Assembly (NCBI GenBank): GCA_964019425.1
Contig: OZ025841.1
Span: 434,001 to 498,000 of the forward strand
Length of the DNA: 64,000 bases
DNA from: Flectonema sp. DT1601
Taxonomy: Eukaryota > Euglenozoa > Diplonemea > Diplonemida > Diplonemidae
Direction of reading: 5' to 3'
The notes below the pieces were generated by a model. It was not told where the DNA came from, made no database searches, and saw only the letters and a list, made by a program, of their open reading frames with translations. The position numbers were made by a program, and so were the translations under genes. This document shows, piece after piece, positions 4,671 through 26,350 of the stretch; position 1 is the first letter of the stretch, and the number at the start of each line of letters is the position of its first letter.

Positions 4671-6928
4671 CCACAAGGATTTTAGGAAAAGAGAAAACAT
4701 AAAAATATTTCTCATGACAAGAACTCGCAGACTCCTTCCGATAGGAAACAACGTGAAGGCGTTACTAGAAAAAGAAAACGACGTTATTATTCCAAACAAT
4801 TTTTTTTTTTTTTTGTTTCCTTCTTTTTTTCACTAACAGGATTCCGCACTTATTTTCGTGGGAGAGAAAAGAACAAAAAAAAACACAGCAAAAATAAACT
4901 GAAAAAAGTAAACAAACAAAAAAAACCTGACTTAACCGAATAATTATAAGTAAATAAAAGGCTTAGTTTTAGCTAGTGCGCAAAGTAGTTTTCATTATTA
5001 TTATTATTTTTTTTTTTTTCTTTCTTATCGTCTAATGTCCTTAGTCGTTAGATAAATTATTATCTCACCGAATTAAAACTTTCTTTTTATGGTTTTTCAT
5101 TTCTTTTTTTTTTTTTCTCTTTTTTTCCCACAGTTTCTTTCACAAATTCATTTAAAAAATGTGCCAAACGTCAAGTAAGAACAGGGTGAATTGTTATTGT
5201 CAAGCTCTCTTCTCTTTATTCTTTTTTTCTTGTAATTTCTTGTGCTTTTCTTCTTATTCGGTTACTAAACTCATATCCACTCCCTCCCTCACCTTTTTTT
5301 TTTTTTGTTTTTTTCTTTCTTTTTTTTTTTTTCTTCCTCCTTTTCTTTTTCCTTTCACTTAGTAAAGTATTTTCCAATTGTAAAAAAAGAAAGTCAGCGA
5401 AGGGAAAGAAAAGAAGGAGATGGATAAAATAAAGGAGACAACTGTTTTTTTTTTTTTCTTCTTTCTTCATTCAGCTGTAACCGGTTATATTTTGTCACGT
5501 TTTTGGCAGGGGTCGGAGTTTGCCGCCTGTACCAAAAAAAAAAAACACACCCATATAACCCAGCTACTTAAGAGAATAAAATCTCAGAACTTTTTCAATC
5601 ACAAATAAAATAAAATAAAATAACAGCGAGTGATTGATACCTTCAATGTAAAGAAAGGGTAATGGCCCAAAATACACCACCTTGGTGGCCCAAAATAAAA
5701 AAAACAAATACATCGTCCTCATTCATTTACCACAACTGACCTGGCCAGCGTGACAAATAAAGTTCTTCGGCTAATTTTTTTCCCTGAGATGCATGATAAA
5801 ACTACTTAGAACTGTGACCTTTATATTTGGTTAGGTAGTAGGTAAGGATAAACCACATTCCGCAGACAAAAAAAAAAAAAAAACAATCATTATGCTATAT
5901 AACCCAGTTGAAGGTTACACGTATTCTTTTTTTTTTTTTTTTTGCTACTCCATTTAAGGGTTAAACCCATAACAAAGGAAAGAATGAAAGAAAGTGAGAC
6001 AGAGGAAAGGAGGAAAAAAAAAATTTCCTTTTTTTTTTTCAAAAGGACAATTACTTCGAGGCTCGTGTATTGAAGGGGAAAGGAAGACTAAAGAAAAACA
6101 AAAAAAAAAGAACAAGGACCGCTATCTATGCAAACACAGAAGCCAATTCACATCATAAATAAAACAACCAAAATAAATGATACATTTTCACAAATCGATT
6201 TGGCATTCATACGTTTTTTTTTTTTTTTTTGAACATTGCAAGACACATTTTTATCAAACGTGAAAATGACATAGGTCCTTCTACAATCAGTAAAGAAAAC
6301 TGGATTTGAAATTTTTTTTTTTTTTTTTTTGCCAGGGTGAATTGTGTGAGAAGCAAGGACAAAGGTAGGCTACAACACCCGTGTCTACTTTTTCTTTTTT
6401 ATTCCCTCCTGTCGAAGGATACAAAAGTGGAAGACTACAAACCAAGATTGAAAGGGAAAAAGAAAAAAAAAATAATAAGACAAAAGATTTCTCTCCCCTG
6501 TAACAGCATCAAAGGATAGCTTTTCTTCACGTGGAACTGTTTCCACCATTACACTAACGTAAATGACTGCAAGCAAAAGTTCAGGGAGAACTCAGTCACA
6601 CCCAAAGCTGCCGCATAACAAGACAGTCGCTATTTTGGTGTTTTCATTTTTTTTTTTTTTAAATAATAAACCAATTTGGTGTCAGGGAGAATCATGTCAC
6701 GCCCCAGTTGCAAACATAACTCTGTCCAGAGTTGCATTTATGTCAACCACCTAAAAGCAACACAAGAAAATTCAAAGCTAAGCACAAAGCACTCCATAAC
6801 GTTAAAAGGAGTTTGTGAAACACAACTACATAACAAATACAAGAAACAACAACAACAAAAAAAAAAAAAAAAAAAAGATAAACGACGAACAGATAGCCTG
6901 GAACTACTGCAGCAGAATCCAGTGAGTT

Positions 6929-10386: not shown

Positions 10387-13300
10387 CTAGTCTCCAGCAT
10401 GCTGCATTTTTTCAGATGTACCCGCTTTCAAGTACATATCACGAACTGTACTCAAAGACCTTCCTTTTCGGGAAAATTCCGGTAAATATTTTAACATAAA
10501 ATGACTTGCTCTTGCAGCAAAATATGTCAAGTGTAACAAATTAGATTCCGAGATGCAAGATTCGAGAAGGACCTGAGCCGTGCTGCGATTTCTTGAGACG
10601 CTGTATTCATAAATACCTTTCCATAAATTGTACAGAGGAAGTGCGCAAGTAACACGTTCCCCACATATTTTAAGTGACGAAAGCGTTTTATTGATTTGCT
10701 GAAGAGAGTTTTTCGAAAAGCTGCTGCCACCGTCTCCCCGCTGAGCTTCCAAAACAGAAGGATGCAACTGAACTTCAAGGAGACAAAATAACGTTTGAAC
10801 AGTAATGATTGATGCCGCAGTTTTGTCTAAAAATTTACATTTGTCAGCCGCAACTTCAGCATCTCTGATAGCCTGTGGAAGGTTACCACGCTTCAAAGCA
10901 ACTAATGCAGAGACTGCATAGAGTAGAGAATTTAACCTTTTATCGTCAAATATATGGTCTGAATCTTTACTGTCACGGAATTGAACTACGCGATGTATTT
11001 TTGACGCAGCTTGTTGGAAGCCTCCAGATCCACCACAAAGCGCGGCATCTACGAATGCTGACAGTGTTAAGGCATAAGCTTCAGATCTGGGATCTTGAGA
11101 ATTATGAGCCATTCTCGCACATGACAACAGTCGTTTATTACCGTCTTCCGGTCTACCTGAAATGGCTCTGTAACAACCTGCTGATAAGTGAACTAGTTGG
11201 AGGGTAGCTAAATCTAAATCGTCTCTGCTTGGATCTTTTAACTGCGATTCCATAGTTCTTGATAAACCAGCATTTAAAAATAATAACGTACTGAGTCTCT
11301 GAATTACTAACTTATCACTTGGAGTTGTTTCCTTTGCATGCTGAATCATACTAAGAATCGTTTGCTGCGACATATAAGACGTAACTTGTGAAACCATACT
11401 CAGGATGTGTAATGATCCTCGTTTACCTCGGAGGCCGAGAGACTTGTCAGCGACGTCGAGAGTCTTTGCTATCTTAAAACCAATAAGAGCATAATATGAC
11501 ATTAGAGTCTGATCTTTATTATGATAAGCAATCATTGTTAACACATGAATGGCTAGTACTCGATCACGGGCTTTACTTGTTTCTTCAGGTGTCATCTTTG
11601 AGAGATCTGACGCTGCGATTGGACGTGAGACGCTTGCGACAGTTCGATGCCATTTAACTTTAACAGATAGCGGAACTCCACAACCAGTGTCTGCTGACAA
11701 CGGAATAGGTAGTTTAGTTTCGTTTAAAACTTGAAGAGCACACTGCTTAGCCATTGCTAAGTTACCCATTTGATAGTGAGTTTGAGACAGTGTTGCATTC
11801 CAATGTAGCTTAACATCCGGAGGTACCTGATGTGACATTTCACTCTCTGATAAGTTATTGCTAATTGACAACGCGTGCTCAATGTATTTGCTTGCTTCTA
11901 ACGCCCTTCCTCTAGCAAGAGACGCATCAGCAGCCTTACCTAAATAGTGAAGCGAACGGTGATTTGCATTTGCGCCTGAAAAATGACGGATAAGAGCGGT
12001 GAGGTCACTACTGCTTCCGAATTGAGCATCACTTTCTAATTCATTAGCGACAATCAAGTGAAATTCACGTCTTTCTCTGGTTAAAAGCATCTCATATAAG
12101 ACATCAGCCATAATATGTAACTTGAACATGTATAAAACTTGACCAGGATTTCCATCACTGCTGTCGTCATTGCCAACACTGGCGTCTTTATTTGTTGGAG
12201 AATTCCTGGCAATCTTTCTGGCACGTGCTCGTCTATTGTAGCGTTCGTTATCGATGAGTTGGACAAATCCAAGGCTTTCAAGCTGACTAAAGACTGCTGC
12301 GACAGAAGTGAAATCTTCACCCAACGTCCGACTCAGTAAATCAATTGTAAACGAAGATCCAATGACAGATGCTACTTTTAGATAATGTTGTTGAACAGGT
12401 TGAAGACGATCAACACGACCTGTGATAATACCTTCAATGCCGTCAGGGATGTCGAGTTTGTTGACGTCTACACCGGGAGCGAATTTCGCGATTCTTCCTT
12501 CTTCGCTAATCAATAGTGGAGAATCAACTTGGTCAAGAAGAGATACGAGAATCTGTTCACCAATACCTGGATTACCTCCACACTTCTTACGTAAAACTCT
12601 AACAACTTGTTCATCAACTTGAGAATGAAGAATCTTTCTAAATAATGCAGCAGTTGCCGCAAGATCAATCGATCCTAAAGTTATTCTTTTTGTTGATGTT
12701 CCTCTATCAAATCCATCCCAAACCCCTTCATCAATAGTTGACAGTCTTGCTGTTCTGCCATCATTCATTATGTTAAGAGACTCTTGTTCTGGAGTTGCTT
12801 TACTCTTTGTGATCAACTCTTCAGGTCTGTGAGCTACAAGTGTACCAACACAAGGATGATTTCTTGTAACGTGTGTTATTATAGTCATGCTTTCCTTATC
12901 AATAAAGTGACTGTCATCAATACAAAGTAGTACAGGAGTATCTTGGTATGCCCTTCTGTAAAACCCAAGAACAATATCTTGAGCTGCGTCGAGTCGATTA
13001 CCATCGGACAGTTCTTTCGTAGTATTCGTTTCTTTTAAATTAAGAGCGGGTATAATCATGTTTAGTAAGGGACGAAGCTCTATGTCAGCTTCATCGATAT
13101 CGGCAGCAAGCCATAATAGTGGTTTTTGAGCAAAACAAGTCATTAAATTACTTATACAAGCATAAGGAGTATAATTTTCAAGAGGTTGACCTTGTGCTGT
13201 GAAAACTTTAACCCCACGAATCGATGCGTCGCTTGCTATTTTGTGAAGGAGGATCGATTTTCCAATTGCAGCTTCTCCGACGACCTCCAAAGTCCTACTA

Positions 13301-15204
13301 GACGGATGGCTGTCTTCAAGAGACAACTCTTGTTGTGATGCTCTTTGAATGAAAGTAATCATTTCGAGTATTTGAGATATTTGAACGTCTCTTCCGAAGA
13401 TTTCAACAGCAATCTCTCTCTGGTCAGCTGCCAACGCATCCAACTCATCCAACTCAGCAACTGAATCGCCGGTATCTAACCTACGAGTCTTTACAGTTCT
13501 TCTACCAGTGCTCCTTGAAGTAACAGTGTCTGCGAATGATGGACTGCTAATACCTCCTTTTGCTCGATTGCTTTTAATTGTTCTTCCTGAGCTTGATGAT
13601 CCAGCATTACTTATTCTTCCATGCATTACAGTATCAACGACTTCGTATATTCGGTGAGAAGCTGCTTTTCCTTTGAGTTTTGTTTCGTGTGGAGGACCAT
13701 AGCGGAATGCAAGAGCTGCTATTTTTGTTGGTTCGTCAACAAATAAAACAGAAGGCTCTACTCCACTAGGTGATTTCTGATTCAACTCTGAAGAAGAATG
13801 CTGCATGACCCTCGCAGCCATGTTGACACCATCTCCAATGACAGTGTACTCACGACGATGACCAGATCCACAATAACCACAATAGGCTTTTGATCGTGAG
13901 ATTCCAATTGCAATACTGCAAATGGTTTCTAGTCGTTCACAACATGCCCATGCGAAAGCAACTGCTCTGGCGGTGTCATCTTCGTGAACGTGTCCAGGAA
14001 GACCAAATAAACATAAAAGAGTGACTCCCTTGTCATCATATAAAACTTTATTTAATATTCCGTCTCGTATCGCTAATTCGTATTGAATTATCTTTACTGC
14101 TTGTTGGATTGCTTCGAAACTGTCGGCATCAGTGTCAACACCCAATCTGAGAAACAGAGTTGAGATGGTGCGAAGTTCACCACGTCTTCCCCATGTCGTG
14201 ATAATGGTGTCGAATAAGAAGTTGTATATCCGCATTCTAAGAGTCTCATCAGGTGTCTTACTGACTTCTGATTCAGGGAGATGAGGGCTGCTGGATAAGG
14301 TTGTTAAATCATCTGGTCGAGGGACGTAGAGGAAAGCATTCGGAGCTGCTTCAGAAAACTGAACTTTCGAATCTAATAAATCTTTAGCTGGTTTTGAAAC
14401 TACTATTTGATCCATCGCAGCGCAATCAGCGATTACAACAGCTTGTCTTACTGCAGGTCCGACAGTCATGTATCTATAGCTTCCACCAACTCCTCCAACA
14501 GTTGCGAATCTGACTTCACCAGCACCTAGTGCTGTGTGAACACCGAGTCTAATTGGTTTCTCAGTTGGTGTGAATTGAATTGTTTCATCAGCTGTGGCTT
14601 TAACTAACTGAGCTCCACATGATAAAGCTCTCTCAGTTTGTTCTGATAAATCATCTGTACTTCGACAAGGCCAAATTGCAAGTACTGCATCACCAGAGAA
14701 TTGAACAACATCACCACCATACTCTTCAATGACATCCAGAAGGAGTGCAAAGAAGTTATTTAAGTGTTCTGCCATTCCGTTTGATCCGTCGACTGATCTC
14801 TTCAACTCTTCTGTTATTCTTGTAAATCCACAAATGTCAACAAACAGTGCAGCAACATCAAGCGTTCTCTGCTGCAATGTTACTTCCGCATCATCAATAG
14901 ACTCTAACAAAACTCTGGGTATATAAGCTTTTAAACCGGATGTATTTATTTTAGCAAGCGCCTCAGTTGGTACCTGTTGAACTGGTGCTTTTTTTCTTTT
15001 TTCAACTCCCCAAGGAACTTGAACACTGTTACTATTATTTAATTCCTGATTTCCGGATGCGTTTGATATCTTCGACTCGATTCGAATTATCTGTTGGGGT
15101 GGAGTCTCCGACGATGTTGATTCAGTCATAGTCAGACCATTGCTTCCTGCACTGCTGACGGTGAAAAGATCCTTTTTATTTCTCGGAACACCGTCATCCG
15201 CCAT
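10387..15204 (-). CDS. ADCY10: Soluble-type adenylyl cyclase (ADCY10-like)
   Basis: A 1605-residue protein, almost the length of human ADCY10 (about 1610), in one uninterrupted frame. Two class III cyclase domains are visible. The first (about 95-290) has FVDICGFT with metal-binding Asp123 and FSGDAVLAIW with Asp172. The second (about 325-525) is more divergent and has CGYCGSGHRREYTVIGDGVN. A STAND-type NTPase follows, with Walker A GEAAIGKS at 643-650 and Walker B LLCIDD at 759-764, then a long helical C-terminal part. In this family the two domains form one bicarbonate- and calcium-responsive site that converts ATP to cAMP. There is no membrane segment, so it should be soluble or organelle-associated. 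A pyrimidine tract ending in CAG 15 bases before the ATG suggests a 5' UTR intron acceptor (exon from 15219). Confidence 0.92.
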   Translation of the reverse strand: MADDGVPRNKKDLFTVSSAGSNGLTMTESTSSETPPQQIIRIESKISNASGNQELNNSNSVQVPWGVEKRKKAPVQQVPTEALAKINTSGLKAYIPRVLLESIDDAEVTLQQRTLDVAALFVDICGFTRITEELKRSVDGSNGMAEHLNNFFALLLDVIEEYGGDVVQFSGDAVLAIWPCRSTDDLSEQTERALSCGAQLVKATADETIQFTPTEKPIRLGVHTALGAGEVRFATVGGVGGSYRYMTVGPAVRQAVVIADCAAMDQIVVSKPAKDLLDSKVQFSEAAPNAFLYVPRPDDLTTLSSSPHLPESEVSKTPDETLRMRIYNFLFDTIITTWGRRGELRTISTLFLRLGVDTDADSFEAIQQAVKIIQYELAIRDGILNKVLYDDKGVTLLCLFGLPGHVHEDDTARAVAFAWACCERLETICSIAIGISRSKAYCGYCGSGHRREYTVIGDGVNMAARVMQHSSSELNQKSPSGVEPSVLFVDEPTKIAALAFRYGPPHETKLKGKAASHRIYEVVDTVMHGRISNAGSSSSGRTIKSNRAKGGISSPSFADTVTSRSTGRRTVKTRRLDTGDSVAELDELDALAADQREIAVEIFGRDVQISQILEMITFIQRASQQELSLEDSHPSSRTLEVVGEAAIGKSILLHKIASDASIRGVKVFTAQGQPLENYTPYACISNLMTCFAQKPLLWLAADIDEADIELRPLLNMIIPALNLKETNTTKELSDGNRLDAAQDIVLGFYRRAYQDTPVLLCIDDSHFIDKESMTIITHVTRNHPCVGTLVAHRPEELITKSKATPEQESLNIMNDGRTARLSTIDEGVWDGFDRGTSTKRITLGSIDLAATAALFRKILHSQVDEQVVRVLRKKCGGNPGIGEQILVSLLDQVDSPLLISEEGRIAKFAPGVDVNKLDIPDGIEGIITGRVDRLQPVQQHYLKVASVIGSSFTIDLLSRTLGEDFTSVAAVFSQLESLGFVQLIDNERYNRRARARKIARNSPTNKDASVGNDDSSDGNPGQVLYMFKLHIMADVLYEMLLTRERREFHLIVANELESDAQFGSSSDLTALIRHFSGANANHRSLHYLGKAADASLARGRALEASKYIEHALSISNNLSESEMSHQVPPDVKLHWNATLSQTHYQMGNLAMAKQCALQVLNETKLPIPLSADTGCGVPLSVKVKWHRTVASVSRPIAASDLSKMTPEETSKARDRVLAIHVLTMIAYHNKDQTLMSYYALIGFKIAKTLDVADKSLGLRGKRGSLHILSMVSQVTSYMSQQTILSMIQHAKETTPSDKLVIQRLSTLLFLNAGLSRTMESQLKDPSRDDLDLATLQLVHLSAGCYRAISGRPEDGNKRLLSCARMAHNSQDPRSEAYALTLSAFVDAALCGGSGGFQQAASKIHRVVQFRDSKDSDHIFDDKRLNSLLYAVSALVALKRGNLPQAIRDAEVAADKCKFLDKTAASIITVQTLFCLLEVQLHPSVLEAQRGDGGSSFSKNSLQQINKTLSSLKICGERVTCALPLYNLWKGIYEYSVSRNRSTAQVLLESCISESNLLHLTYFAARASHFMLKYLPEFSRKGRSLSTVRDMYLKAGTSEKMQHAGD

Positions 15205-15390: not shown

Positions 15391-15726
15391 AACTAGAGAG
15401 AGAATAGAATAAAGTGAGTTTCCATCAATTATAAAATAACAGAAGTATCTCACTGAGGGATAACTTGTTGCTCTGAACACATAGTTGACAACAAGCAATA
15501 AAGTTAGAAGATTTCAACAATATTTAGTTATATAGTTAGTCATATAATCCAACGTTAACTGTATATTATGAGTGCTCTAAGGAGGGTAACTCACAGTAAC
15601 AGAGGACCCAATCCGTAGCCATATCCGAAGATTTCGCATGGATTGTTGAAGTAGCATCGACCGAAAGATTAATGAATACCAATCTCCAGCTTTCCGCCTC
15701 GCCGCAGCTTATTAAACTATCGAACT

Positions 15727-15759
<33 letters not shown>

Positions 15760-15895
15760 CAACTTTGTGACGTCAACACACACGAAGTTCATTCCCAAAC
15801 AGCTTCGTGAAGTTCACTTGTCGAATATGATTGGAAGCAAAACACATGAAATGGAATGGTTTCAACCAAAGAAAGTTAGGAAGTGGTAGTTAGTT
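15391..15895 (-). repeat. Array cassette A (upstream of cyclase)
   Basis: Copy of the cassette that precedes most SDR genes; it begins AACTAGAGAGAG and ends GTGGTAGTTAGT. It holds a perfect palindromic TGACGTCA at 15768-15775, 564 bp before the cyclase start codon. A SINE-like insert splits it at 15527-15751. Whether the cassette acts as a promoter or enhancer is inference. Confidence 0.75.
15527..15751 (+). mobile_element. SINE-like insert S1, copy a
   Basis: About 225 bp present here and at 31441-31666 but missing from the otherwise identical cassettes at 23 kb, 25 kb, 27 kb and 29 kb. The empty site reads CAACAATATTTAATAAACAA. The insert starts GTTATATAGTTAGTC and ends in a run of about 25 A, as expected for a short retroposon integrated by target-primed reverse transcription. 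It contains an imperfect hairpin bounded by CAATCC and GGATTG. A diverged relative lies near 38.55 kb. Confidence 0.65.
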
Positions 15896-16331
15896 TTGAT
15901 TTGCTCAGCAACCTTCGCGGGAAACCAAATTAAAAATACTTAAAAAAAAAAGTACAGTCGTTGCGATATTATCCACAACTGTACAACAAAGCAATAAAAG
16001 GAAGGCAAAACTACTATTTATCAGGCAGCATACGAGTGAAGTGTAGTCAGCCGATTGCAAACAGTAGCTAACAAAAATTTAAAATAACAAAAAGAATCTT
16101 TCCAAAATAAAGGGGAAATATAAAGGGGCGAAAAGACCTTTATTTCAGCTTAATTATTAAATCCCAAGGCACGCGTAGATTATAATAAGTTGGAAGATAA
16201 CATACTCAGAGATCCTCCCACATAAATAACAAACCTTCTGAATGTAATTATAGATTAATCCATTATCACATTCGAAGAATATTTTATTATTTATTATTCG
16301 ATTTTACAATACTCGTAATTGAAGGACAGCA

Positions 16332-17357
16332 TCACATCCTCGCAAACTCCACACCAGTAGCGACATCACTCGCAGAAACCAGAATCTCTTTGGCTTTCTT
16401 GTCAGTGCAGCGGCCTTCCGGATGGATGATTTTTGGTGCACCGACCATGTTGTCACCATTCGGTCCATAAAACTCTCCGCTCTTCACATTCTTTGACGCC
16501 ATGCAGTACAGAAGTGGGAGAGCTCCATCGTGAGCTGATTGTTTCTCAAACACGTTTGCAAATGATGCGAAGCAACGTGTTCCTATAGAATCGTATTGAG
16601 ACATCGAACCGATCAGGGAAGTTGTTGCGTACCCCGGATGCGCAACGAGGGCTTTGATGTTGAGATTCTGAGCAGCCAACTTCTGGTGAAGTGCCATCGT
16701 GTAGATTACGTTGGCAAGCTTCGATTGCTGGTATCTCTTGTACTTACTCATAATCCAGTTGCCTCCCAACTTGTCACCATTTACATTCTTCTCGAGGTAC
16801 ACCCTATTGAGTTTACAAGGAGGTGTCTTACGAGCATAACTGGCATGGTTGACGATCCTCGCCTCTCCTCGTTTCTGAGCAGCTATGGCGATCTCCTTGA
16901 AGAGAAGATGAGTTAGTAAGTAGTGCGACAGATGGTTAGTTTGCATTTGAATATCGTAACCGTCTTTCCCGGTGAAGTTGTCGAACGCCATCACACCTGC
17001 GTTGTTGGCCAACACATCAAGTCCTCGACCACCGAACTTCGACAGATATGTTTGTGCAGCCTCCCTCACACTCGAGAAGTCTGACAGATCGCAGTTGATT
17101 TGAGTGACTGCAGCACTTGGAAACTTCTCCCGAAGCACTCCCAACGCGGAGTCAGATCTCCCAGACTTTCTATTGAATAAAACCAACTCCCCTCCCAGTG
17201 CTAAGACAGTCTCCGCTGCAACATTCCCAGTACCTGTTGTGGTTCCCGTAATGGCGATCAGCTTTCCATCGAGTCTCGGAAGTTGACCTACGATCTTGTC
17301 GTAGTGAACGTTCTTCAGAATCTTTGTTCCCGAGGATTTGGTAGATGAGCTTCCCAT
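16332..17357 (-). CDS. Short-chain dehydrogenase/reductase, array copy 1
   Basis: 341 residues, classical SDR fold of the retinol-dehydrogenase/WWOX-like group. The cofactor motif TGTTTGTG is at 38-45, with Arg63 in the position that usually favours NADPH. NNAG is at 118-121, the catalytic Ser at 173 (VNHAS), Tyr209 and Lys213 in YQQSK. All catalytic residues are present, so an active NAD(P)H-dependent oxidoreductase is likely; the substrate is unknown. The N-terminus MGSSSTKSSG fits an N-myristoylation signal (Gly2, Ser6), so membrane anchoring is plausible. First of seven tandem copies; a TGACGTCA cassette lies 234 bp upstream. Single exon. Confidence 0.9.
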   Translation of the reverse strand: MGSSSTKSSGTKILKNVHYDKIVGQLPRLDGKLIAITGTTTGTGNVAAETVLALGGELVLFNRKSGRSDSALGVLREKFPSAAVTQINCDLSDFSSVREAAQTYLSKFGGRGLDVLANNAGVMAFDNFTGKDGYDIQMQTNHLSHYLLTHLLFKEIAIAAQKRGEARIVNHASYARKTPPCKLNRVYLEKNVNGDKLGGNWIMSKYKRYQQSKLANVIYTMALHQKLAAQNLNIKALVAHPGYATTSLIGSMSQYDSIGTRCFASFANVFEKQSAHDGALPLLYCMASKNVKSGEFYGPNGDNMVGAPKIIHPEGRCTDKKAKEILVSASDVATGVEFARM

Positions 17358-17445: not shown

Positions 17446-17714
17446 AACTAGAGAGAGAATAGAATAAAGTGAATCCCATCAATAAAATAACAGAAGTATC
17501 TCACTGAGGGATAACTTGTTGCTCTGAACACATAGTTGACAACAAGCAATAAAGTTAGAAGATTTCAACAATATTTAATAAACAACTTTGTGACGTCAAC
17601 ACACACGAAGTTCATTCCCAAACAGCTTCGTGAAGTTCACTTATCGAATATGATTGGAAGCAAAACACATGAAATGGAATGGTTTCAACCAAAGAAAGTT
17701 AGGAAGTGGTAGTT
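17446..17714 (-). repeat. Array cassette B (upstream of SDR copy 1)
   Basis: Uninterrupted form of the cassette, with TGACGTCA at 17591-17598. Its distal end abuts the pseudo-LTR of the Penelope-like element. Confidence 0.8.
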
Positions 17715-17925
17715 AGTTTGTATCATTAATTTTAGAACAGAAAAGTGAGAATAAGAAAAGCAGAGATTAATAAAAGAAAAGTATTCATTTCTGCAGTTTC
17801 CTAACATCAAAGGGTAATAGAATATGTAGTTTCAGGCCTTAATCTTATACTACTTGTCCCTTTTTAGGCCTTTATCAGTAAGTTCTAAGGGAATTCATTC
17901 TATGTTGAAGTTGCTATCGTTCAAA
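17715..17925 (-). repeat. Pseudo-LTR, 3' copy
   Basis: 211-bp direct repeat matching 22666-22876 with a handful of substitutions. The minus strand carries ACTGATAA, then AGGCCT, a 22-base spacer, AGGCCT and GAAAC, a hammerhead-like core with one altered position compared with the other copy. Confidence 0.88.
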
Positions 17926-17986
17926 GATAAAAATCCATCGGAGCTCGCCAGGATAGGGCTAGCTAGCAATGTTTATTTGCTTTTGC

Positions 17987-19774
17987 TCAATTTGAATTTT
18001 TGATGTCTGGTCGTTTCACTATTACAGTCGAGTTAATGGATGAGTCGTCATCCAATTTCCGTTTTATTTTATCTTCGCATACCATCAACGGTCCTATATT
18101 CGCAGGTGTCATTGTAACATCCATATCAGTCTGAGCTTTTAATGGTATCATATGGAAACTATATTCTGTAGTTTGGTACATCTTGTCAAAATGATCGAAA
18201 GGGAGTCTTAAATCTTTTGTGCCTTTAAGAATGTCTCGGATGATCATGGACTCAAATGAGACTAGCGCAACAATAAAGTGAGTCATCCTTGTTTTTGCTT
18301 TATGCAGAATAAGTGCTGCGGCTGTATCAGGATATTCGAAATCTGCTGGGTTAACGAAGTACTCGATTCTCCTGTTGAATTTAGTCATGCAAGCCATGTT
18401 AAGTACTTGTAGCGAGAACCAACCATCTGGTGATGGTTTATGCTCTGAGTTGTTCGGTTCTACTTTAAGAGATTCTTCATAAAATCGCTGTTGGTAGTTT
18501 TGCAGAAAACTGAAGTTAATTCTATCGATATATAAATGATCTGCAATGAAGTTGAGCGCTGCCCATCCGCATTCTCCACCGAGAAGACCTTCTCCTGATG
18601 TTTGATGTAGGGATGGTGGAAATCGTTTATCCAAAGAATGGCTTGTAGAGCCCGTATGGTTAATTGTATCCTTTTCGATGCTTAATGGGACTTTGTGACT
18701 AAACTTCTCAAAAGTAAGGTTGATACGTCGACGCATTGCAGCTGCTGTATTACCATCATCAATGTGAGAGCTAATGAAGCGGAGGCCTGCTGCTCTGATA
18801 TTGTCAGATTTATAGCCCCGGTTGAGTAATCTATAAGTTACTGCTTCAAGTTCCTGTAAAAAATCTGCCTGGTTGTTGCAGATTTTTAGAGCTCGTAAGA
18901 TCATGGTGGTAAAGATACCTGAACCCATTGATTCTTGAGCTGCGGAATGCTGATGGGTAAACCTTGTTGGTGTAATATGCCAACCCCTGACTTTGTCGTT
19001 AACACTTAAACGAATCCATCGTTTATTTGTGTTAGTGATCTCTATTCGGATACGAATTCCTATATAAGAGACATCATCGATATTATTCGAAGTATCAGTG
19101 TAATCCATTGAGTATAGACTTGCTGGTGGAGGGTCGCAACTCCAGGTGAGGAAGTCGTCGATGTATCTACACGAGTGGTCATGTTGCCGAGCTAAGTCTA
19201 GATTTTTTGCTTCAATTAAAGAATCGATATATGCGGATTCAACTCTATAGCAGTAGAGATTTGCTATATCGCTACTGGCGTTGCCACCCATTGGAATGCC
19301 TATTATTTGTCTCCAAATATAACCTCTTAATGCAATAAAGGAGGAGTCAATACAGAATTCAAGTAATTTTTGACATTCTGCAAGCGCAAGAGAAGGGAAT
19401 CGTGTAGGGTCACTCGATTCAAGACGTAAGATATTTTTGAAACTAAAGGCTTCTTGCAGTGCTTCACTTACTTTAGTTTTAATAGCGTTGTGTGGTAGGC
19501 GGGTGTACATTGTTGTAAAATCAAAAGTCTTAGGGGATAATTTTTTCAAAACCATCAAATTCTGTTTAATCGAACTAGAGACTTCATCATCTGATTCCAC
19601 AATCCAGTATCGTTTGAACCGTGAATGCATATCTTTCTCTTTTAATATAGTCATCGCATTTTTTAAGGATACTAGAGAGATGTTGGTGCGCATATGTTGT
19701 TGCTGTTGCAGGTGCAAGATCATGATCCTTATCGTATTGTCGTTGTTCCGCTGTACCCGTGAAGGATGAGACAC
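17987..19774 (-). CDS. PLE reverse transcriptase with Josephin-like C-terminus
   Basis: A 595-residue open frame. The first ~350 residues are the palm and thumb of a Penelope-type reverse transcriptase: motif A FDFTTMYTRLPH (Asp85), then GIPMGGNASSDIANLY near 159, and motif C YIDDFLTW at 204-211 with both Asp. From about 395 a separate domain begins: GGECGWAALNF with Cys402, DGWFSLQVL at 450-458, THFIVAL with His499, and Asp514. Spacing Cys-97-His-15-Asp and the DGWFSLQV block resemble the Josephin deubiquitinase fold (ataxin-3 has Cys14, His119, Asn134 and GFFSIQV). I see no GIY-YIG after the reverse transcriptase. The peptidase call is motif-level inference. Confidence 0.85.
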   Translation of the reverse strand: MSHPSRVQRNNDNTIRIMILHLQQQQHMRTNISLVSLKNAMTILKEKDMHSRFKRYWIVESDDEVSSSIKQNLMVLKKLSPKTFDFTTMYTRLPHNAIKTKVSEALQEAFSFKNILRLESSDPTRFPSLALAECQKLLEFCIDSSFIALRGYIWRQIIGIPMGGNASSDIANLYCYRVESAYIDSLIEAKNLDLARQHDHSCRYIDDFLTWSCDPPPASLYSMDYTDTSNNIDDVSYIGIRIRIEITNTNKRWIRLSVNDKVRGWHITPTRFTHQHSAAQESMGSGIFTTMILRALKICNNQADFLQELEAVTYRLLNRGYKSDNIRAAGLRFISSHIDDGNTAAAMRRRINLTFEKFSHKVPLSIEKDTINHTGSTSHSLDKRFPPSLHQTSGEGLLGGECGWAALNFIADHLYIDRINFSFLQNYQQRFYEESLKVEPNNSEHKPSPDGWFSLQVLNMACMTKFNRRIEYFVNPADFEYPDTAAALILHKAKTRMTHFIVALVSFESMIIRDILKGTKDLRLPFDHFDKMYQTTEYSFHMIPLKAQTDMDVTMTPANIGPLMVCEDKIKRKLDDDSSINSTVIVKRPDIKNSN

Positions 19775-20234
19775 CAGTAATCCATCTCATCCCGATAGCT
19801 GATTTGTGTAATTTAATCATTCCGTATAGGTGTGGGAGTCGATCAGAGTGGCGGGCATTGATTGAAATGTTCATGTTCTTGAGGTTGGCTAGTAGAGTTG
19901 GTTCGTCTGATGTGATGCGTTCATAAGAATCACTTTGTAGCTGCTCTCGAAGTAAACGCAAATAATTTAATTTACACATGTAACCAATATCGTGCTGTCC
20001 TTTGTCAACTTTAAGAAATACAAACTGAGATTGAAGATTCTGAAGTTCAGTCCATGCTTTATTTGATAATGGTGAGTCAAGAAAGCTTAAGTCTTTACTT
20101 AATTTAAGCTGCAATTGTTTAAGAATTGTGTTTTTAAAGATCGATTTAAAGTTATCGCCAACGTTCTTGTACGCGTGAGTTATATATTCAGTAATATCAT
20201 TTTCAAGTGATTCTAATGCAGCTGATGGGTGCAC
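19587..20234 (-). CDS. PLE, N-terminal part of reverse transcriptase
   Basis: A frame of 215 residues overlapping the start of the downstream reverse transcriptase frame. It contains LPHLYGMIKLHK, equivalent to the LYGLPKIHK-type block that opens the fingers of Penelope and telomerase-like reverse transcriptases, preceded by a helical region (WTELQNLQSQFVFLKVDKG). It belongs to the same element and lies in a different frame from its continuation. Confidence 0.75.
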   Translation of the reverse strand: MHPSAALESLENDITEYITHAYKNVGDNFKSIFKNTILKQLQLKLSKDLSFLDSPLSNKAWTELQNLQSQFVFLKVDKGQHDIGYMCKLNYLRLLREQLQSDSYERITSDEPTLLANLKNMNISINARHSDRLPHLYGMIKLHKSAIGMRWITGVSSFTGTAEQRQYDKDHDLAPATATTYAHQHLSSILKKCDDYIKRERYAFTVQTILDCGIR

Positions 20235-20568
20235 ATGGGACTCTAAATTTTTGACCTCGTGCGAAGAAGTCTCTTAGTTCTTCTGAGACTGGTAAATCAA
20301 TAGCAAGTCCGCAAGAATGGTCGTTGTATTTTAAACTATTCAGTTCTTGAGTACTGCAATTGCAAGTAGATTGAGTCGGGGAGTCTGAATTGATGCTTGT
20401 TGAAGATGCATTTAAGACGATATCACCAACTGTTGTTCCAAGTTTGTTACAGATGCGTGTTCTTTCAAGAGTTCTAAGACAAGGACAGGTTGCTTTAACT
20501 TCATCACATCTAAGAACAGCGCCAAGACCAATACGATCTAATGCTTTGTGGCCAAGATTCAGTTTCAA
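20203..20568 (-). CDS. PLE, cysteine-rich linker segment
   Basis: A frame of 121 residues between the endonuclease and the reverse transcriptase. It has Cys spaced as CDEVKATCPC...RTRIC and later CNCST. A CxC-type zinc-binding linker between GIY-YIG and reverse transcriptase is known in the permuted Penelope-like groups, and this segment sits in that position. Zinc binding is inferred from cysteine spacing only. Confidence 0.55.
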   Translation of the reverse strand: MKLNLGHKALDRIGLGAVLRCDEVKATCPCLRTLERTRICNKLGTTVGDIVLNASSTSINSDSPTQSTCNCSTQELNSLKYNDHSCGLAIDLPVSEELRDFFARGQKFRVPCAPISCIRIT

Positions 20569-21547
20569 CCAGTAAGTGTCCTAGTCTTTGCATGAAACAA
20601 TGCTCCAGCTGTTTTACGCGGGCAGTGTAATGTTCTTGAAAGAAGTTACTTCTAAGAAACTGCAAAAATTTTGTAGTGGAGCGTGTCTGCCAACGCGAGA
20701 AGTCGTATTCAACGAATTCTTCGTCAGTAAGCTTAAACAAATAGTTAAGCTTTAACGGGATCCATTTTTTATCCGTTGCGACTTGAAAAGAGACACCTGT
20801 TTCTAGTGTTATTGTTGTTGGTTGCAATGTATTGGAGGACGTTGTGCTGCTCACATTGTAACCGTCATCTGCTACTTCGTTGAAGTTGTAGAAGTTTTCT
20901 GTAGCAAGATGTTGTTGTCTTACAGGTGGAGGTTGGCGGTTGTTTCTTGTGCGATTTCTGTTCGTACTCAATTTTGGTGCATAATAGCCACGCGTATTTA
21001 ATAGATTTTTAAAGGAATTAATATAATACTGTTCACGTGGTGCGGCAGCTCTGTAGAAATCCGCTGCGTTGTTGTAATTGCAATCCGGAATCTTTTCTAG
21101 CGGCACGGCTAGGAGTGGGAATCTCTGCTTTGCCAGGAACTCATAAAGCTTGTTCCCCTGGTAGCTGCTGTCCCTTGAGTGCTTTTTCGCAGCATACCAG
21201 TGGGAATGAACTCGCTTCATTGTAGAATTATACGTTTGCCCTACGTATACTACTTTCTGGTCTGATCTTCTAAAGAGTGCATAAATGACTCCGGGGGTAC
21301 GCATTCCGGGTTGTCTGCCTCTTATTTTGCGGCGTTGTAAAATTTTCCTTTGGAAAATATGGCGTTGACGGTTACAGTTACTCTCGTAAACTGACCAATC
21401 TATTCCGCCGTTTCGCTGCTTGTTTCTGTGCGCAGCTCCTTCATTATGCCAATTAAAATGGGCTTGGCTAGAATGCCAGTTTGCGCGGGAACGTCCATGT
21501 TGGCGTCGAATTCTATGTTGTGGATGTTGTCCGATGACTTTCTCCAT
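20510..21547 (-). CDS. PLE GIY-YIG endonuclease segment
   Basis: A frame of 345 residues. The core is PGVIYALF (the GIY half), then VVYVGQT (the YIG half) and MKRVHSHW, which supplies the conserved Arg; a later Glu-containing stretch follows. GIY-YIG nucleases make the nick that primes reverse transcription in Penelope-like elements. The beginning of the frame is rich in Arg, Asn and His and may be partly out of the natural frame. It precedes the reverse transcriptase, which is the diagnostic feature of this element. Confidence 0.82.
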   Translation of the reverse strand: MEKVIGQHPQHRIRRQHGRSRANWHSSQAHFNWHNEGAAHRNKQRNGGIDWSVYESNCNRQRHIFQRKILQRRKIRGRQPGMRTPGVIYALFRRSDQKVVYVGQTYNSTMKRVHSHWYAAKKHSRDSSYQGNKLYEFLAKQRFPLLAVPLEKIPDCNYNNAADFYRAAAPREQYYINSFKNLLNTRGYYAPKLSTNRNRTRNNRQPPPVRQQHLATENFYNFNEVADDGYNVSSTTSSNTLQPTTITLETGVSFQVATDKKWIPLKLNYLFKLTDEEFVEYDFSRWQTRSTTKFLQFLRSNFFQEHYTARVKQLEHCFMQRLGHLLVETESWPQSIRSYWSWRCS

Positions 21548-21975
21548 GGATTAGAATTGTAAGAGGGAGGCAATGCTCGTTCAATGATTAAACGCATTTT
21601 ACCAGCACCTACGGATCGAACTGCTGCACTGATTGCAGCAAATGGGAGCTCTTTCCTGCTTTTTTGCTCTATCATAATTTTTAAAGTGCTTCCCGATTGC
21701 ACTATCTTCCTTAACTGGAAGTCTCTTAAAGGTAGCACTCTAAATAGTGCTGTCCTGAGCGCTGTGTTAGGCTTAACAGGACGAGAGAAATTAAAATGGG
21801 GGTTGGAATTATTGTGGTGTTTGCTATTGGAAGAAAAAAAAGAAAAATGACGAGGAACATGATTTTTTGTTTTGGAAAACCATCCAAAACGTGAGTTATC
21901 GACCCCTCCGGGTTTGTTTGCAAATTTAACCCCATATGCGTCGGGGTGTACTTGGTTAAAAGTACGGGTTTTCAT
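21400..21975 (-). CDS. PLE, N-terminal basic segment
   Basis: A frame of 191 residues from the probable first ATG of the element, overlapping the endonuclease frame. It is basic and Asn/Ser-rich at first, then contains an ordered stretch (LKIMIEQKSRKELPFAAI...MRLIIERALPP). No known domain was recognised. The 690 bp between it and the 5' pseudo-LTR is a noncoding leader. Confidence 0.5.
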   Translation of the reverse strand: MKTRTFNQVHPDAYGVKFANKPGGVDNSRFGWFSKTKNHVPRHFSFFSSNSKHHNNSNPHFNFSRPVKPNTALRTALFRVLPLRDFQLRKIVQSGSTLKIMIEQKSRKELPFAAISAAVRSVGAGKMRLIIERALPPSYNSNPWRKSSDNIHNIEFDANMDVPAQTGILAKPILIGIMKELRTETSSETAE

Positions 21976-22665
21976 TCAGAAATTATAATTGCCCATGGGC
22001 GGCTTTTTCTCTTTAAGGAAGAGAACTAAAAGATTTTGAAGAAACCGCGTGCTCACAGAAGTTTTTTGTTATGGCGGGTATCGACTTCTTCCCTCCGAGA
22101 TGAGGGGGGTATCTTAACACGATCAGACACCGCTTGTCCGCTGGGTTCATGAGCTTTCGTGCCTTAAAAGCGTACTTAAAGTTATACGGTAATTACGTTG
22201 GCGAGACGTATACAGCTTTAAGTGGAGAGCAGTTAAGGGTCCAGTTCAATTATTGCCCGTTGTCGAAGTTGAAGAGGAGAGTTTGAATAAAATTTCAGGA
22301 GAAAGGAGATTCGTTTGAGTAGGGAGCCTATTCAAAGGTACCATACCGTGGTACTTCACACAATTAATTTCCATTAGCTAAACCAAAATAAAAAAGGAAA
22401 AGTTAGAAAAAGGAAAAGGTGGGGAAATATATATAAACCAAAGTTAGATGTCTGGAAACATATTTGAAATTGCAGGATAATTGATAAACAATTATGCTTC
22501 ACATCGCCTTATGTAAGCTTAGAGAAGTCTTTAGAGAATAAGAATCTCTAATGCAGGGGATTCAGTTGCGAAGAACTTAAATACCCCGTCAGGTGCTGCT
22601 ACCAAGAAGCGGCTTGGCAAAATCCACTGGTAGACCCTAAGCGAGTCCCACGTGGTAGTTACCTG

Positions 22666-22876
22666 AGTTTGTATCATTAATTTTAGAACAGAAAAGTGAG
22701 AATAAGAAAAGTAGAGATTAATAAAAGAAAAGTATTCATTTCTGCAGTTTCCTAACATCAAAGGGTAATAGAATATGTAGTTTCAGGCCTTAATCTTATG
22801 CTACTTGTCCCTTTTTAGGCCTTCATCAGTAAGTTCTAAGGGACTTCATTCTATGTTGAAGTTGCTATCGCTCAAA
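22666..22876 (-). repeat. Pseudo-LTR, 5' copy, hammerhead-like core
   Basis: Direct repeat partner of 17715-17925. On the minus strand it contains ACTGATGA, the palindrome AGGCCT, a 22-base loop, AGGCCT and GAAAC (about 22767-22835), matching the hammerhead ribozyme core CUGAUGA-stem II-GAAA. A possible stem I pairs TTAGAAC upstream with GTTCTAA about 90 bases downstream, but stem III is weak. Hammerheads are known in the terminal repeats of Penelope-like elements. Confidence 0.8.
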
Positions 22877-23072: not shown

Positions 23073-23349
23073 AACTAGAGAGAGAATAGAATAAAGTGAG
23101 TTTCCATCAATAATAAAATAACAGAAGTATCTCACTGAGGGATAACTTGTTGCTCTGAACACATAGTTGACAACAAGCAATAAAGTTAGAAGATTTCAAC
23201 AATATTTAATAAACAACTTTGTGACGTCAACACACACGAAGTTCATTCCCAAACAGCTTCGTGAAGTTCACTTGTCGAATATGATTGGAAGCAAAACACA
23301 TGAAATGGAATGGTTTCAACCAAAGAAAGTTAGGAAGTGGTAGTTAGTT
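23073..23349 (-). repeat. Array cassette C
   Basis: Cassette copy with TGACGTCA at 23222-23229. It is the duplicate of the cyclase-upstream cassette, without the SINE-like insert. It lies 3' of SDR copy 2 and upstream of the Penelope-like element, so here it precedes no host gene. Confidence 0.8.
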
Positions 23350-23785
23350 TTGATTTGCTCAGCAACCTTCGCGGGAAAACAAATTAAAAATACTTAAAAA
23401 AAAAAGTACAGTCGTTGCGATATTATCCACAACTGTGCAACAAAGCAATAAAAGGAAGGCAAAACTACTATTTATCAGGCAGCATACGAGTGAAGTGTAG
23501 TCAGCCGATTGCAAACAGTAGCTAACAAAAATTTAAAATAACAAAAAGAATCTTTCCAAAATAAAGGGGAAATATAAAGGGGCGAAAAGACCTTTATTTC
23601 AGCTTAATTATTAAATCCCAAGGCACGCGTAGATTATAATAAGTTGGAAGATAACATACTCAGAGATCCTCCCACATAAATAACAAACCTTCTGAATGTA
23701 ATTATAGATTAATCCATTATCACATTCGAAGAATATTTTATTATTTATTATTCGATTTTACAATACTCGTAATTGAAGGACAGCA

Positions 23786-24811
23786 TCACATCCTCGCAAA
23801 CTCCACACCAGTAGCGACATCACTCGCAGAAACCAGAATCTCTTTGGCTTTCTTGTCAGTGCAGCGGCCTTCCGGATGGATGATTTTTGGTGCACCGACC
23901 ATGTTGTCACCATTCGGTCCATAAAACTCTCCGCTCTTCACATTCTTTGACGCCATGCAGTACAGAAGTGGGAGAGCTCCATCGTGAGCTGATTGTTTCT
24001 CAAACACGTTTGCAAATGATGCGAAGCAACGTGTTCCTATAGAATCGTATTGAGACATCGAACCGATCAGGGAAGTTGTTGCGTACCCCGGATGCGCAAC
24101 GAGGGCTTTGATGTTGAGATTCTGAGCAGCCAACTTCTGGTGAAGTGCCATCGTGTAGATTACGTTGGCAAGCTTCGATTGCTGGTATCTCTTGTACTTA
24201 CTCATAATCCAGTTGCCTCCCAACTTGTCACCATTTACATTCTTCTCGAGGTACACCCTGTTGAGTTTACAAGGAGGTGTCTTACGAGCATAACTGGCAT
24301 GGTTGACGATCCTCGCCTCTCCTCGTTTCTGAGCTGCTATGGCGATCTCCTTGAAGAGAAGATGAGTTAGTAAGTAGTGCGACAGATGGTTAGTTTGCAT
24401 TTGAATATCGTAACCGTCTTTCCCGGTGAAGTTGTCGAACGCCATCACACCTGCGTTGTTGGCCAACACATCAAGTCCTCGACCACCGAACTTCGACAGA
24501 TATGTTTGTGCAGCCTCCCTCACACTCGAGAAGTCTGACAGATCGCAGTTGATTTGAGTGACTGCAGCACTTGGAAACTTCTCCCGAAGCACTCCCAACG
24601 CGGAGTCAGATCTCCCAGACTTTCTATTGAATAAAACCAACTCTCCTCCCAGTGCTAAGACAGTCTCCGCTGCAACATTCCCGGTACCTGTTGTGGTTCC
24701 CGTAATGGCGATCAGCTTTCCATCGAGTCTCGGAAGTTGACCTACGATCTTGTCGTAGTGAACGTTCTTCAGAATCTTTGTTCCCGAGGATTTGGTAGAT
24801 GAGCTTCCCAT
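23786..24811 (-). CDS. Short-chain dehydrogenase/reductase, array copy 2
   Basis: 341 residues; as far as I can read, the protein is identical to copy 1, and the 5' and 3' flanks also match closely. This makes copies 1 and 2 the youngest pair of the array, separated only by the Penelope-like element. Catalytic Ser173, Tyr209 and Lys213 are kept and the N-terminus is of the MGSSS type without a Cys at position 3. Confidence 0.9.
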   Translation of the reverse strand: MGSSSTKSSGTKILKNVHYDKIVGQLPRLDGKLIAITGTTTGTGNVAAETVLALGGELVLFNRKSGRSDSALGVLREKFPSAAVTQINCDLSDFSSVREAAQTYLSKFGGRGLDVLANNAGVMAFDNFTGKDGYDIQMQTNHLSHYLLTHLLFKEIAIAAQKRGEARIVNHASYARKTPPCKLNRVYLEKNVNGDKLGGNWIMSKYKRYQQSKLANVIYTMALHQKLAAQNLNIKALVAHPGYATTSLIGSMSQYDSIGTRCFASFANVFEKQSAHDGALPLLYCMASKNVKSGEFYGPNGDNMVGAPKIIHPEGRCTDKKAKEILVSASDVATGVEFARM

Positions 24812-25262: not shown

Positions 25263-26350
25263 AGTATTGGCTGGAAGTGATCGACTTCCAGCCTCCACCT
25301 TGCCCAGAGGCTAACAGGTTGTAAACAACTAAAGAAAATAAAAGAGAAATGATCTGGGAGTGGGGGGAAGGTGAAAAAAAATAAAAAATCTTCTTTCTTT
25401 CATATACATCTTTCTTTATAATACGACCACATGTGCCATATGCCCACACTCCACGAAAGAAAATAGAAAACCCCGGAACAGTACCGAGGATCGTTCACCC
25501 TCAGTTGTCCAAAGCATTATAATTGTACTGTGGGCTTACCGAAAAGCTTTAGAAATGTACCACAAAAGGTTTGGGCAGCACATAGCCATATCACTCAGCA
25601 AGAAATGAAAACCAAAAGGATCAGGTAAGATGACAGTCAGTTTAAAGTCATAACTGCGCCGGACCAAGTTTGGATCTGCTTAGCACCTTCGGGGCGTCTA
25701 AACAAATTAAAAATAATAAAAATCAATAATTCATATGATCGTTATCCAGGCGATTGAATCAACAACTGTACAACTAACAAAATAGAGAGAGGTCAGACAA
25801 CATCTCATCACAGAGATGCCATTAATTTTAGTGTAGAAAAGTATAGAAAAAGAAATAGAGATCAGTAAAAGAAAAATATTCATTTCTGCAGTTTCTCATT
25901 ACAAAGATACACAACTACAATTCTATCAGGCAGCGCTTACAGTCAGCCGATCAAAAAGCAGCAGGAAAAAACAAATATAATGACTAACTAACTAACTTAA
26001 TAACAAAAGAAAAAATGTCAACAAAACTCTTAAAGCAGTTAGAATACGAGTATGTTATGAAATAGTGTACTAAATCGAAAAATGAAAATTAAAAATTAAC
26101 AAAAAAAAAAAAAAGAAATCACATCGTGCCGTTACAATTTACACTGCAGATTACGTCAGCAGCAAAGTTTTGGGGACCACATCCTTCTTCTGTGATACAA
26201 AGAACCTTCAACGTCTTAATTTAAAAGACTTGATAACTTAATTTGCCATCTCTTCAATGGCGGCAACTCCCTGAAGACTAATAATTGTCTACCTTCTGCT
26301 TTAAAGATCCATTAACATATTTAAACAATACTCGTAACTGAAGGACAGCA
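25263..26350. other. Intergenic region between SDR copies 2 and 3
   Basis: No gene. Contains the diverged 3' block typical of the array (from about 25675), a pseudo-LTR fragment (25819-25906) and an A tract at about 26101. The remainder shows nothing I recognise. Confidence 0.65.
25819..25906 (-). repeat. Pseudo-LTR fragment of a Penelope-like element
   Basis: About 88 bp matching the outer part of the 211-bp pseudo-LTR (CATTAATTTTAG... to ...CATTTCTGCAGTTTC) with many substitutions. It lacks the half carrying the hammerhead-like core. It interrupts the 3' block of SDR copy 3 and looks like an older relic of the same family. Confidence 0.65.

Follow-up and report, generated by a model that had tools for sequence, protein, structure and literature searches.

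Penelope-like elements with 'permuted domains', in which a GIY-YIG endonuclease is N-terminal, have reportedly been described by Craig et al. in 2021 (doi 10.1093/molbev/msab225). We know of no peptidase domain in Penelope-like elements with an N-terminal GIY-YIG. The role of OTU and Ulp1 domains in transposons is, to our knowledge, mostly conjecture. Published accounts describe an OTU-like protease in Helentrons (PMC6431247), an OTU or Ulp1 protease in Ginger1 (PMC2836005) and an Ulp1-like protease in Utopia/NeSL (PMC4640811), and the Ginger authors propose an active role of OTU/Ulp1 in transposition, for example via DNA repair (PMC2836005). The present analysis concerns a 64,000-nucleotide stretch of the genome of Flectonema sp. 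DT1601 (C62:434001-498000, hereafter the window), which includes a Penelope-like element, together with searches of the 89.5-Mb genome (92 contigs). The explanation preferred here, with a probability of about 60%, is that the element is a Penelope-like retrotransposon with a C-terminal Josephin-like papain-like peptidase, for which ubiquitin or a ubiquitin-like modifier is the likeliest substrate.

The domain is encoded on the minus strand by a 595-codon frame (17987-19774), in which GECGW is found at residue 400, DGWFS at 450, THFIV at 498 and RDILK at 513. Its features in the window are as follows.

about 18140-18652, minus strand: Josephin-like cysteine peptidase domain (AlphaFold model, best structural matches Josephin)
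18569-18571, minus strand: predicted catalytic Cys402 (alignment, conservation)
18413-18427, minus strand: DGWFS block, in register with the Josephin GFFS (profile and pairwise alignment)
18278-18280, minus strand: predicted catalytic His499 (alignment, conservation)
18233-18235, minus strand: predicted catalytic Asp514 (alignment, conservation)

A sequence-only reading of the window had placed Cys402, a DGWFS block at 450, His499 and Asp514 in this frame, with spacings of 97 residues between Cys and His and 15 between His and Asp, and had put the domain after the reverse transcriptase (RT). Residues and spacings proved correct, and the RT motif RYIDDF (19151-19168) precedes the domain in the same frame. 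The extent given for the domain, 17987-18600, was only partly right: the domain is present there, but its real span runs slightly past the given end, and 17987-18139 is the tail of the frame.

Endonuclease, RT and domain form one chain in other copies. Uninterrupted open frames of 1350, 1380 and 2273 amino acids (aa) elsewhere in the genome have the order putative GIY-YIG endonuclease, RT, domain. In the 1350-aa frame at C28, GVIYAL is located at residue 237, YVGQT at 252, RYIDDF at 958, GECGW at 1155 and THFIV at 1253. GVIYAL, YVGQT and REQYY are taken by us to be the motifs of a GIY-YIG endonuclease; the motif residues are present, and the matches to Pfam GIY-YIG, with E-values of 0.033-0.089 across the proteins (0.036 for segment 2 of the window copy, listed below), fall short of the cut-off. 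The RT motifs are presumably Penelope-like. Pfam RVT_1 was matched in the protein of family C (E 2.4e-7), with no RT match in families A or B, and a PDB sequence search with the RT at E ≤ 0.1 gave no match.

Six lineages carry the domain: family A, to which the window element belongs (open frames up to 1350 aa); family B (1380-aa frame, 64% domain identity to A); family C (2273 aa, L033); family D (2050 aa, L034); family E (L063); and family F, a frame at C66 with nothing but the domain (L069). In an alignment of these domains (A1), that of the window shares 64, 29, 27, 26 and 31% identity with those of B to F, respectively, and the columns invariant in the six lineages include Cys28, Trp30, Asn34, Gly77-Trp78-Phe79, His125 and Asp140 (A1 numbering). 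Cys, His and the GWF block, on which the sequence-only reading had relied, are hence retained in related elements down to 26% identity. The genome contains at least 153 scored matches to the domain alone (E ≤ 1) and at least 78 to the RT plus domain, many of them fragments or decayed; recurrence in at least 153 matches argues that the domain is not a product of chance.

The AlphaFold model of the window domain had a predicted local distance difference test score (pLDDT) of 81.5 and a predicted template modelling score (pTM) of 0.81, and its best structural matches were Josephin. With VIA-align, Josephin structures were ranked first for two domain models, above C39 in both. As judged by these models, the predicted fold is papain-like, as had been anticipated, and appears to be that of Josephin. 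When the profile of A1 was compared with two sequences of ataxin-3 type (P 0.0012), Cys was placed on Cys and GWF on GFF, and the score of 27.8 over 72 columns was reached in none of 300 column shuffles, the best of which scored 24.5. The score of a C39 profile against the domain was 20.2 over 15 columns, reached in none of 200 shuffles; the two profiles differ in length, and their raw scores are only roughly comparable. The Asn six residues after Cys is invariant in the domain and present in ataxin-3 and Josephin-2, and none of the ComA rows has it. The acid of the triad is Asp, as in Josephin-2, while ataxin-3 has Asn. With its 15-residue step from His to the acid, the window copy shows the Josephin-type Cys-His-Asn/Asp triad pattern, and the triad is invariant in the six lineages. 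The structural comparison gave no residue-by-residue alignment, and the placing of Cys402, His499 and Asp514 on the Josephin triad therefore depends on sequence. Cys and GWF match their Josephin counterparts in the profile and pairwise alignments, as does His in both global alignments; Asp514 falls on the Josephin acid position only by counting 15 residues from His, both global alignments placing Asp elsewhere.

Several observations weigh against the assignment. The two best Foldseek rows for the second model were the C39 peptidase ComA, the structure models were built from shallow alignments with 6 and 4 rows, respectively, and a second prediction job gave five models, four of them poor, with mean pLDDT from 65 to 40. 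HHalign probabilities against ataxin-3 were low (20% for A1 and 3% for families C-F alone), the profile of families C-F alone gave P 0.013, and the likeness of the sequence profile to ataxin-3 is weak on its own. A Gln five residues before Cys is the oxyanion residue in Josephins; it is absent from all six lineages, which have Leu or Ala there. PF02099 was unmatched in the proteins that contain the domain (two among eight and four among five proteins scanned at E ≤ 1, and six of six at E ≤ 5). A PF02099 scan of the genome likewise gave no match, but none of 14 control genomes was matched either, so that absence is not demonstrated by it. Pfam Peptidase_C39 (PF03412) was weakly matched in three of the six members (E 0.036); the window domain scored 14.3 bits, the cut-off being 22. 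Among all Pfam hits, Longin had the lowest E-value (0.00094, in two of the six members). No relative was found outside the genome among viral contigs, bacterial and archaeal contigs or PDB sequences.

A Longin identity was set aside, as that match spans only some 25 residues of helices one and two and the structural rows are nearly all papain-like enzymes. As to the outside searches, PDB sequences gave no match to the domain profile at E ≤ 10, and pattern matches in viral (14) and bacterial or archaeal (12) contigs, none of them confirmed, say little on other eukaryotes. In a viral structure library, the best match was to an unnamed protein (E 2.4e-4), followed by matches of 2.3e-3 and weaker, and an NCBIfam scan gave nothing relevant, its one weak match being irrelevant. 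Given the unmatched PF02099, the missing Gln before Cys and the C39 rows ranked first by Foldseek for the second model, the evidence supports the label 'Josephin-like', and 'a Josephin' is not warranted.

A search with the RT of family C found further RT elements (open frames up to 1436 aa, 40% identity), of which two loci were read. The first, L078 (C5:544300-549300, family G), has the same endonuclease-RT layout as the Josephin-like elements, and no Josephin-like domain was found in its six frames (best E 0.15, score 1.0). The segment after its RT includes AGNCFF and HYMPI and is matched by Pfam OTU (PF02338) over profile positions 2-128 of 128 with E 0.0015 and 19.4 bits, below the cut-off of 23.3; in the whole 1321-aa L078 protein, Pfam OTU was not reported at E ≤ 1. 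The same segment has 49 genome matches at E ≤ 0.01, which include a gene of clear OTU type (L080, with DGNCLFRS and HYNPI; E 3e-9) and the second locus. In the latter, L079 (C22:574000-576500), which represents a second RT family, FGNCFF and EHFFPI follow the RT and there is no Josephin-like match. A PDB sequence search with the OTU-like domain returned one irrelevant row only. An unrooted RT tree of seven families (E partial) resolves into the clusters A-B, C-D-E and G-H, with support values of 99 or more for every cluster; hence, the Josephin-like domain occurs in two RT clusters and the OTU-like domain in a third. C, D and G share a C-terminal Cys-His zinc-finger-like motif (identified by eye), and domain exchange seems to have changed the middle of the protein and kept both flanks. 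The chances appear evenly divided that Penelope-like elements with an N-terminal endonuclease have a dedicated deubiquitinase slot after the RT, Josephin-like in two RT lineages and OTU-like in a third. If so, ubiquitin control would be a standing part of retroelement mobility, gained on two or more occasions from distinct families of enzymes.

The element protein would begin with the GIY-YIG endonuclease, continue with the RT and end in a papain-like cysteine peptidase whose fold resembles that of Josephin. To judge from this fold and from the conserved residues, the Cys-His-Asp triad of the peptidase would cleave isopeptide or peptide bonds. As two deubiquitinase-type folds occupy one slot, ubiquitin or a ubiquitin-like modifier is favoured as the substrate, most likely attached to the protein of the element itself or, where the element integrates, to proteins of chromatin or repair. 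Cutting off the modifier might shield the ribonucleoprotein from the proteasome or open up the target. The domain is a putative deubiquitinase; its predicted fold and the OTU-like domain at the same spot in sister elements hint at interference by these elements with the protein tagging of the host.

Papain-like domains process polyproteins in some RNA viruses, and a C39-like or generic papain-like peptidase might similarly release endonuclease, RT and tail from the polyprotein of the element itself. The Foldseek rows for ComA and the weak Peptidase_C39 matches are on the side of this alternative, which survives best of those considered and is nevertheless unlikely: Josephin stands above C39 in both VIA comparisons, the profile scores point the same way as far as they can be compared (27.8 in 72 columns for Josephin, 20.2 in 15 for C39), and the sister families fill the slot with an OTU-like domain. 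It is mainly this OTU-like domain, at the same place after the RT, that leads to ubiquitin being chosen over self-processing.

The examined loci include 83 domain hits, of which 62 near-full ones were counted and 21 partial ones left out; the 62 represent 59 distinct places, as both members of each of the pairs L033/L036, L034/L061 and L035/L048 cover a single place. All three triad residues, Cys, His and Asp, are kept in 61 of the 62. In the remaining one, Arg replaces His, which adds to the points against the assignment; one other has Cys in place of the GWF Trp, and three (L022, L064 and L069) contain stops. Because the copies of any one family hardly differ and three places count double, the independent evidence consists of the six lineages and not of 62 copies. 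These counts bear on a second alternative, in which the Josephin-like fold is kept for binding only, as a ubiquitin reader or a scaffold of the ribonucleoprotein, with no catalysis. The missing Gln before Cys would suit such a role, but a pure binder need not retain the triad, which is invariant across six lineages and incomplete in just one near-full copy, and binding alone is accordingly regarded as improbable.

Divergence at nonsynonymous (dN) and synonymous (dS) sites was compared for the peptidase-like domain and the RT. Between families A and B, the peptidase has dN 0.285 and dS 3.07 and the RT dN 0.244 with saturated dS; between C and D, dN is 0.353 for the peptidase and 0.185 for the RT, with saturated dS. 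Among the family A domains (22 same-length copies of 23, broken ones included), 16 nonsynonymous and 16 synonymous differences were counted against 1181:313 opportunities (binomial P 2.5e-4), and 5 and 7, respectively, without singletons (P 0.005), these P values being rough since the copies share ancestry. By these estimates, the domain evolves somewhat faster than the RT yet is constrained, under purifying selection. An accidental or decaying read-through tail without function, to which the frameshifts of the window copy itself might point, is highly improbable and is rejected for the family, given a domain common to six lineages, uninterrupted in long frames and under purifying selection.

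The window copy is broken, one protein being split over five frame segments when searched by tblastn with the 1350-aa C28 protein, and this copy alone may well be dead. The C28 copy, with its uninterrupted frame, is 97.5% identical to the window element across the full 17715-22876. The features of the window element outside the peptidase-like domain are as follows.

17715-22876, minus strand: whole Penelope-like element copy, 5.2 kb, frameshifted (match to the C28 copy)
22652-22876, minus strand: 5' terminal direct repeat (pLTR), sharing 95.6% identity with 17706-17925 in an alignment of 225 columns
22781-22829, minus strand: hammerhead-core-like motif in the 5' pLTR, CTGATGA, 5-bp stem, GAAA (unproven)
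21532-21975, minus strand: frame segment 1, N-terminal part, residues 1-148 of the C28 protein (tblastn, 99% identity)
20528-21529, minus strand: frame segment 2, with GIY-YIG motifs GVIYAL (21275-21292), YVGQT (21233-21247) and REQYY (21023-21037)
20215-20589, minus strand: frame segment 3, residues 485-609 (tblastn)
19662-20234, minus strand: frame segment 4, residues 603-793, N-terminal RT part (tblastn)
17990-19666, minus strand: frame segment 5, residues 792-1350, RT core and peptidase-like domain (tblastn)
19505-19522, 19283-19300, 19151-19168 and 19052-19066, minus strand: RT core motifs DFTTMY, GIPMGG, RYIDDF and YIGIR in segment 5
17706-17925, minus strand: 3' terminal direct repeat (pLTR), pairing with 22652-22876; the C28 match begins at 17715
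17830-17878, minus strand: variant hammerhead-like core, CTGATAA, in the 3' pLTR

The terminal direct repeats of the window element are about 211 bp long, and family C elements have end repeats of 186 bp. At C28, a 5'-truncated copy lies immediately before the full copy, and a 2639-bp stretch is identical between both. A pLTR and tandem layout has been described for one Penelope-like element (PMC11167929). The terminal direct repeats, the tandem of truncated and full copies, and the GIY-YIG and RT motifs together support the identification of the carrier as a Penelope-like element, which the sequence-only reading had assumed.

The hammerhead-core-like motif is found in the end repeats of families A and C and, in family B, 3' of the frame. 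Outside the window, the pattern occurs at 6 and 8100 in L033, at 3353 in L025 and at 3287 in L006; in its loose form it also matched two other places, and stems I and III are not convincingly drawable. An Rfam scan of eight related loci at E ≤ 5 gave no match, including to hammerhead ribozymes, and a hammerhead ribozyme in the pLTR is unproven.

A lone 78-bp piece resembling the terminal repeat (87%) is located at 25820-25895 in the window, 3 kb from the element. The element sits between two of three copies of a host segment (15401-15526 with 15744-16340, 17456-17719 and 23083-23794) next to a short-chain dehydrogenase gene (16332-17357). Further away, a 1605-aa frame at 10387-15204 (minus strand) encodes a guanylate/adenylate cyclase domain (Pfam E 1.3e-11) and an AAA ATPase domain (3.5e-8). 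Elsewhere in the genome, L069 (C66:154200-155800) has at 513-989 (minus strand) a divergent Josephin-like domain in its own frame with all key residues, which could be a domesticated or orphaned copy. The neighbouring gene has, as judged by eye, a motif resembling helix-hairpin-helix, and the 1.6 kb of this locus showed no noticeable RT. In L033, tandem repeats of about 117 bp (76-83% alike) lie at 6293-6760 inside the family C frame, in a proline-rich tail after the domain. The RT search also returned at least 20 short frames whose similarity to the family C RT is confined to its first part, at identities mostly of 50-60% (for example C55:18802 and 20929, C25:23154 and 25286, C78:13381, C72:677148 of 693571, and C54:746765-750383). 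Many are apparently near contig ends, and they possibly belong to a subtelomeric Penelope-like relative.

Among the titles and abstract openings listed from the open-access literature, no Josephin-like domain in any transposon and no peptidase, Josephin-like or OTU, in Penelope-like elements was found, and the main text of a review on papain-like peptidases (PMC10318531) contains neither 'transpos' nor 'reverse transcriptase'. Papers on rotifer retroelements contain the word 'josephin' once or twice, presumably as part of a laboratory name, and one listed paper concerns copies of the ataxin-3 gene in primates. OTU and Ulp1 domains in transposons are already in print; for the Josephin-like domain on a Penelope-like element, the papers searched gave no precedent. 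Within one element class, one endonuclease-RT backbone is combined with either of two deubiquitinase-type folds, each of them in uninterrupted copies, and this natural contrast makes a need of retroelements for ubiquitin cleavage directly testable.

Compared with the Josephin deubiquitinases (ataxin-3 and Josephin-2; PF02099), the domain lies below Pfam detection and lacks the Gln five residues before Cys; it also lacks the longer insert of ataxin-3 before GFF and is fused to an RT. The JOS clippases and deubiquitinases BpJOS, PaJOS and PcJOS, so named in PDB titles, are bacterial and gave weaker VIA matches than ataxin-3. Peptidase C39 (ComA, PCAT1, HlyB) is lower in VIA and profile scores, and its ComA rows are without the Asn six residues after Cys. 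Like Penelope-like elements with an N-terminal GIY-YIG, the elements have the endonuclease before the RT, terminal direct repeats and tandem partial copies. Like Ginger1, Helentrons and Utopia/NeSL, as these are described in PMC2836005, PMC6431247 and PMC4640811, they have a deubiquitinase-type cysteine protease on a mobile element. Those, however, are other element classes with other protease families, whereas the domain here is Josephin-like and a sister lineage within its class has an OTU-like one.
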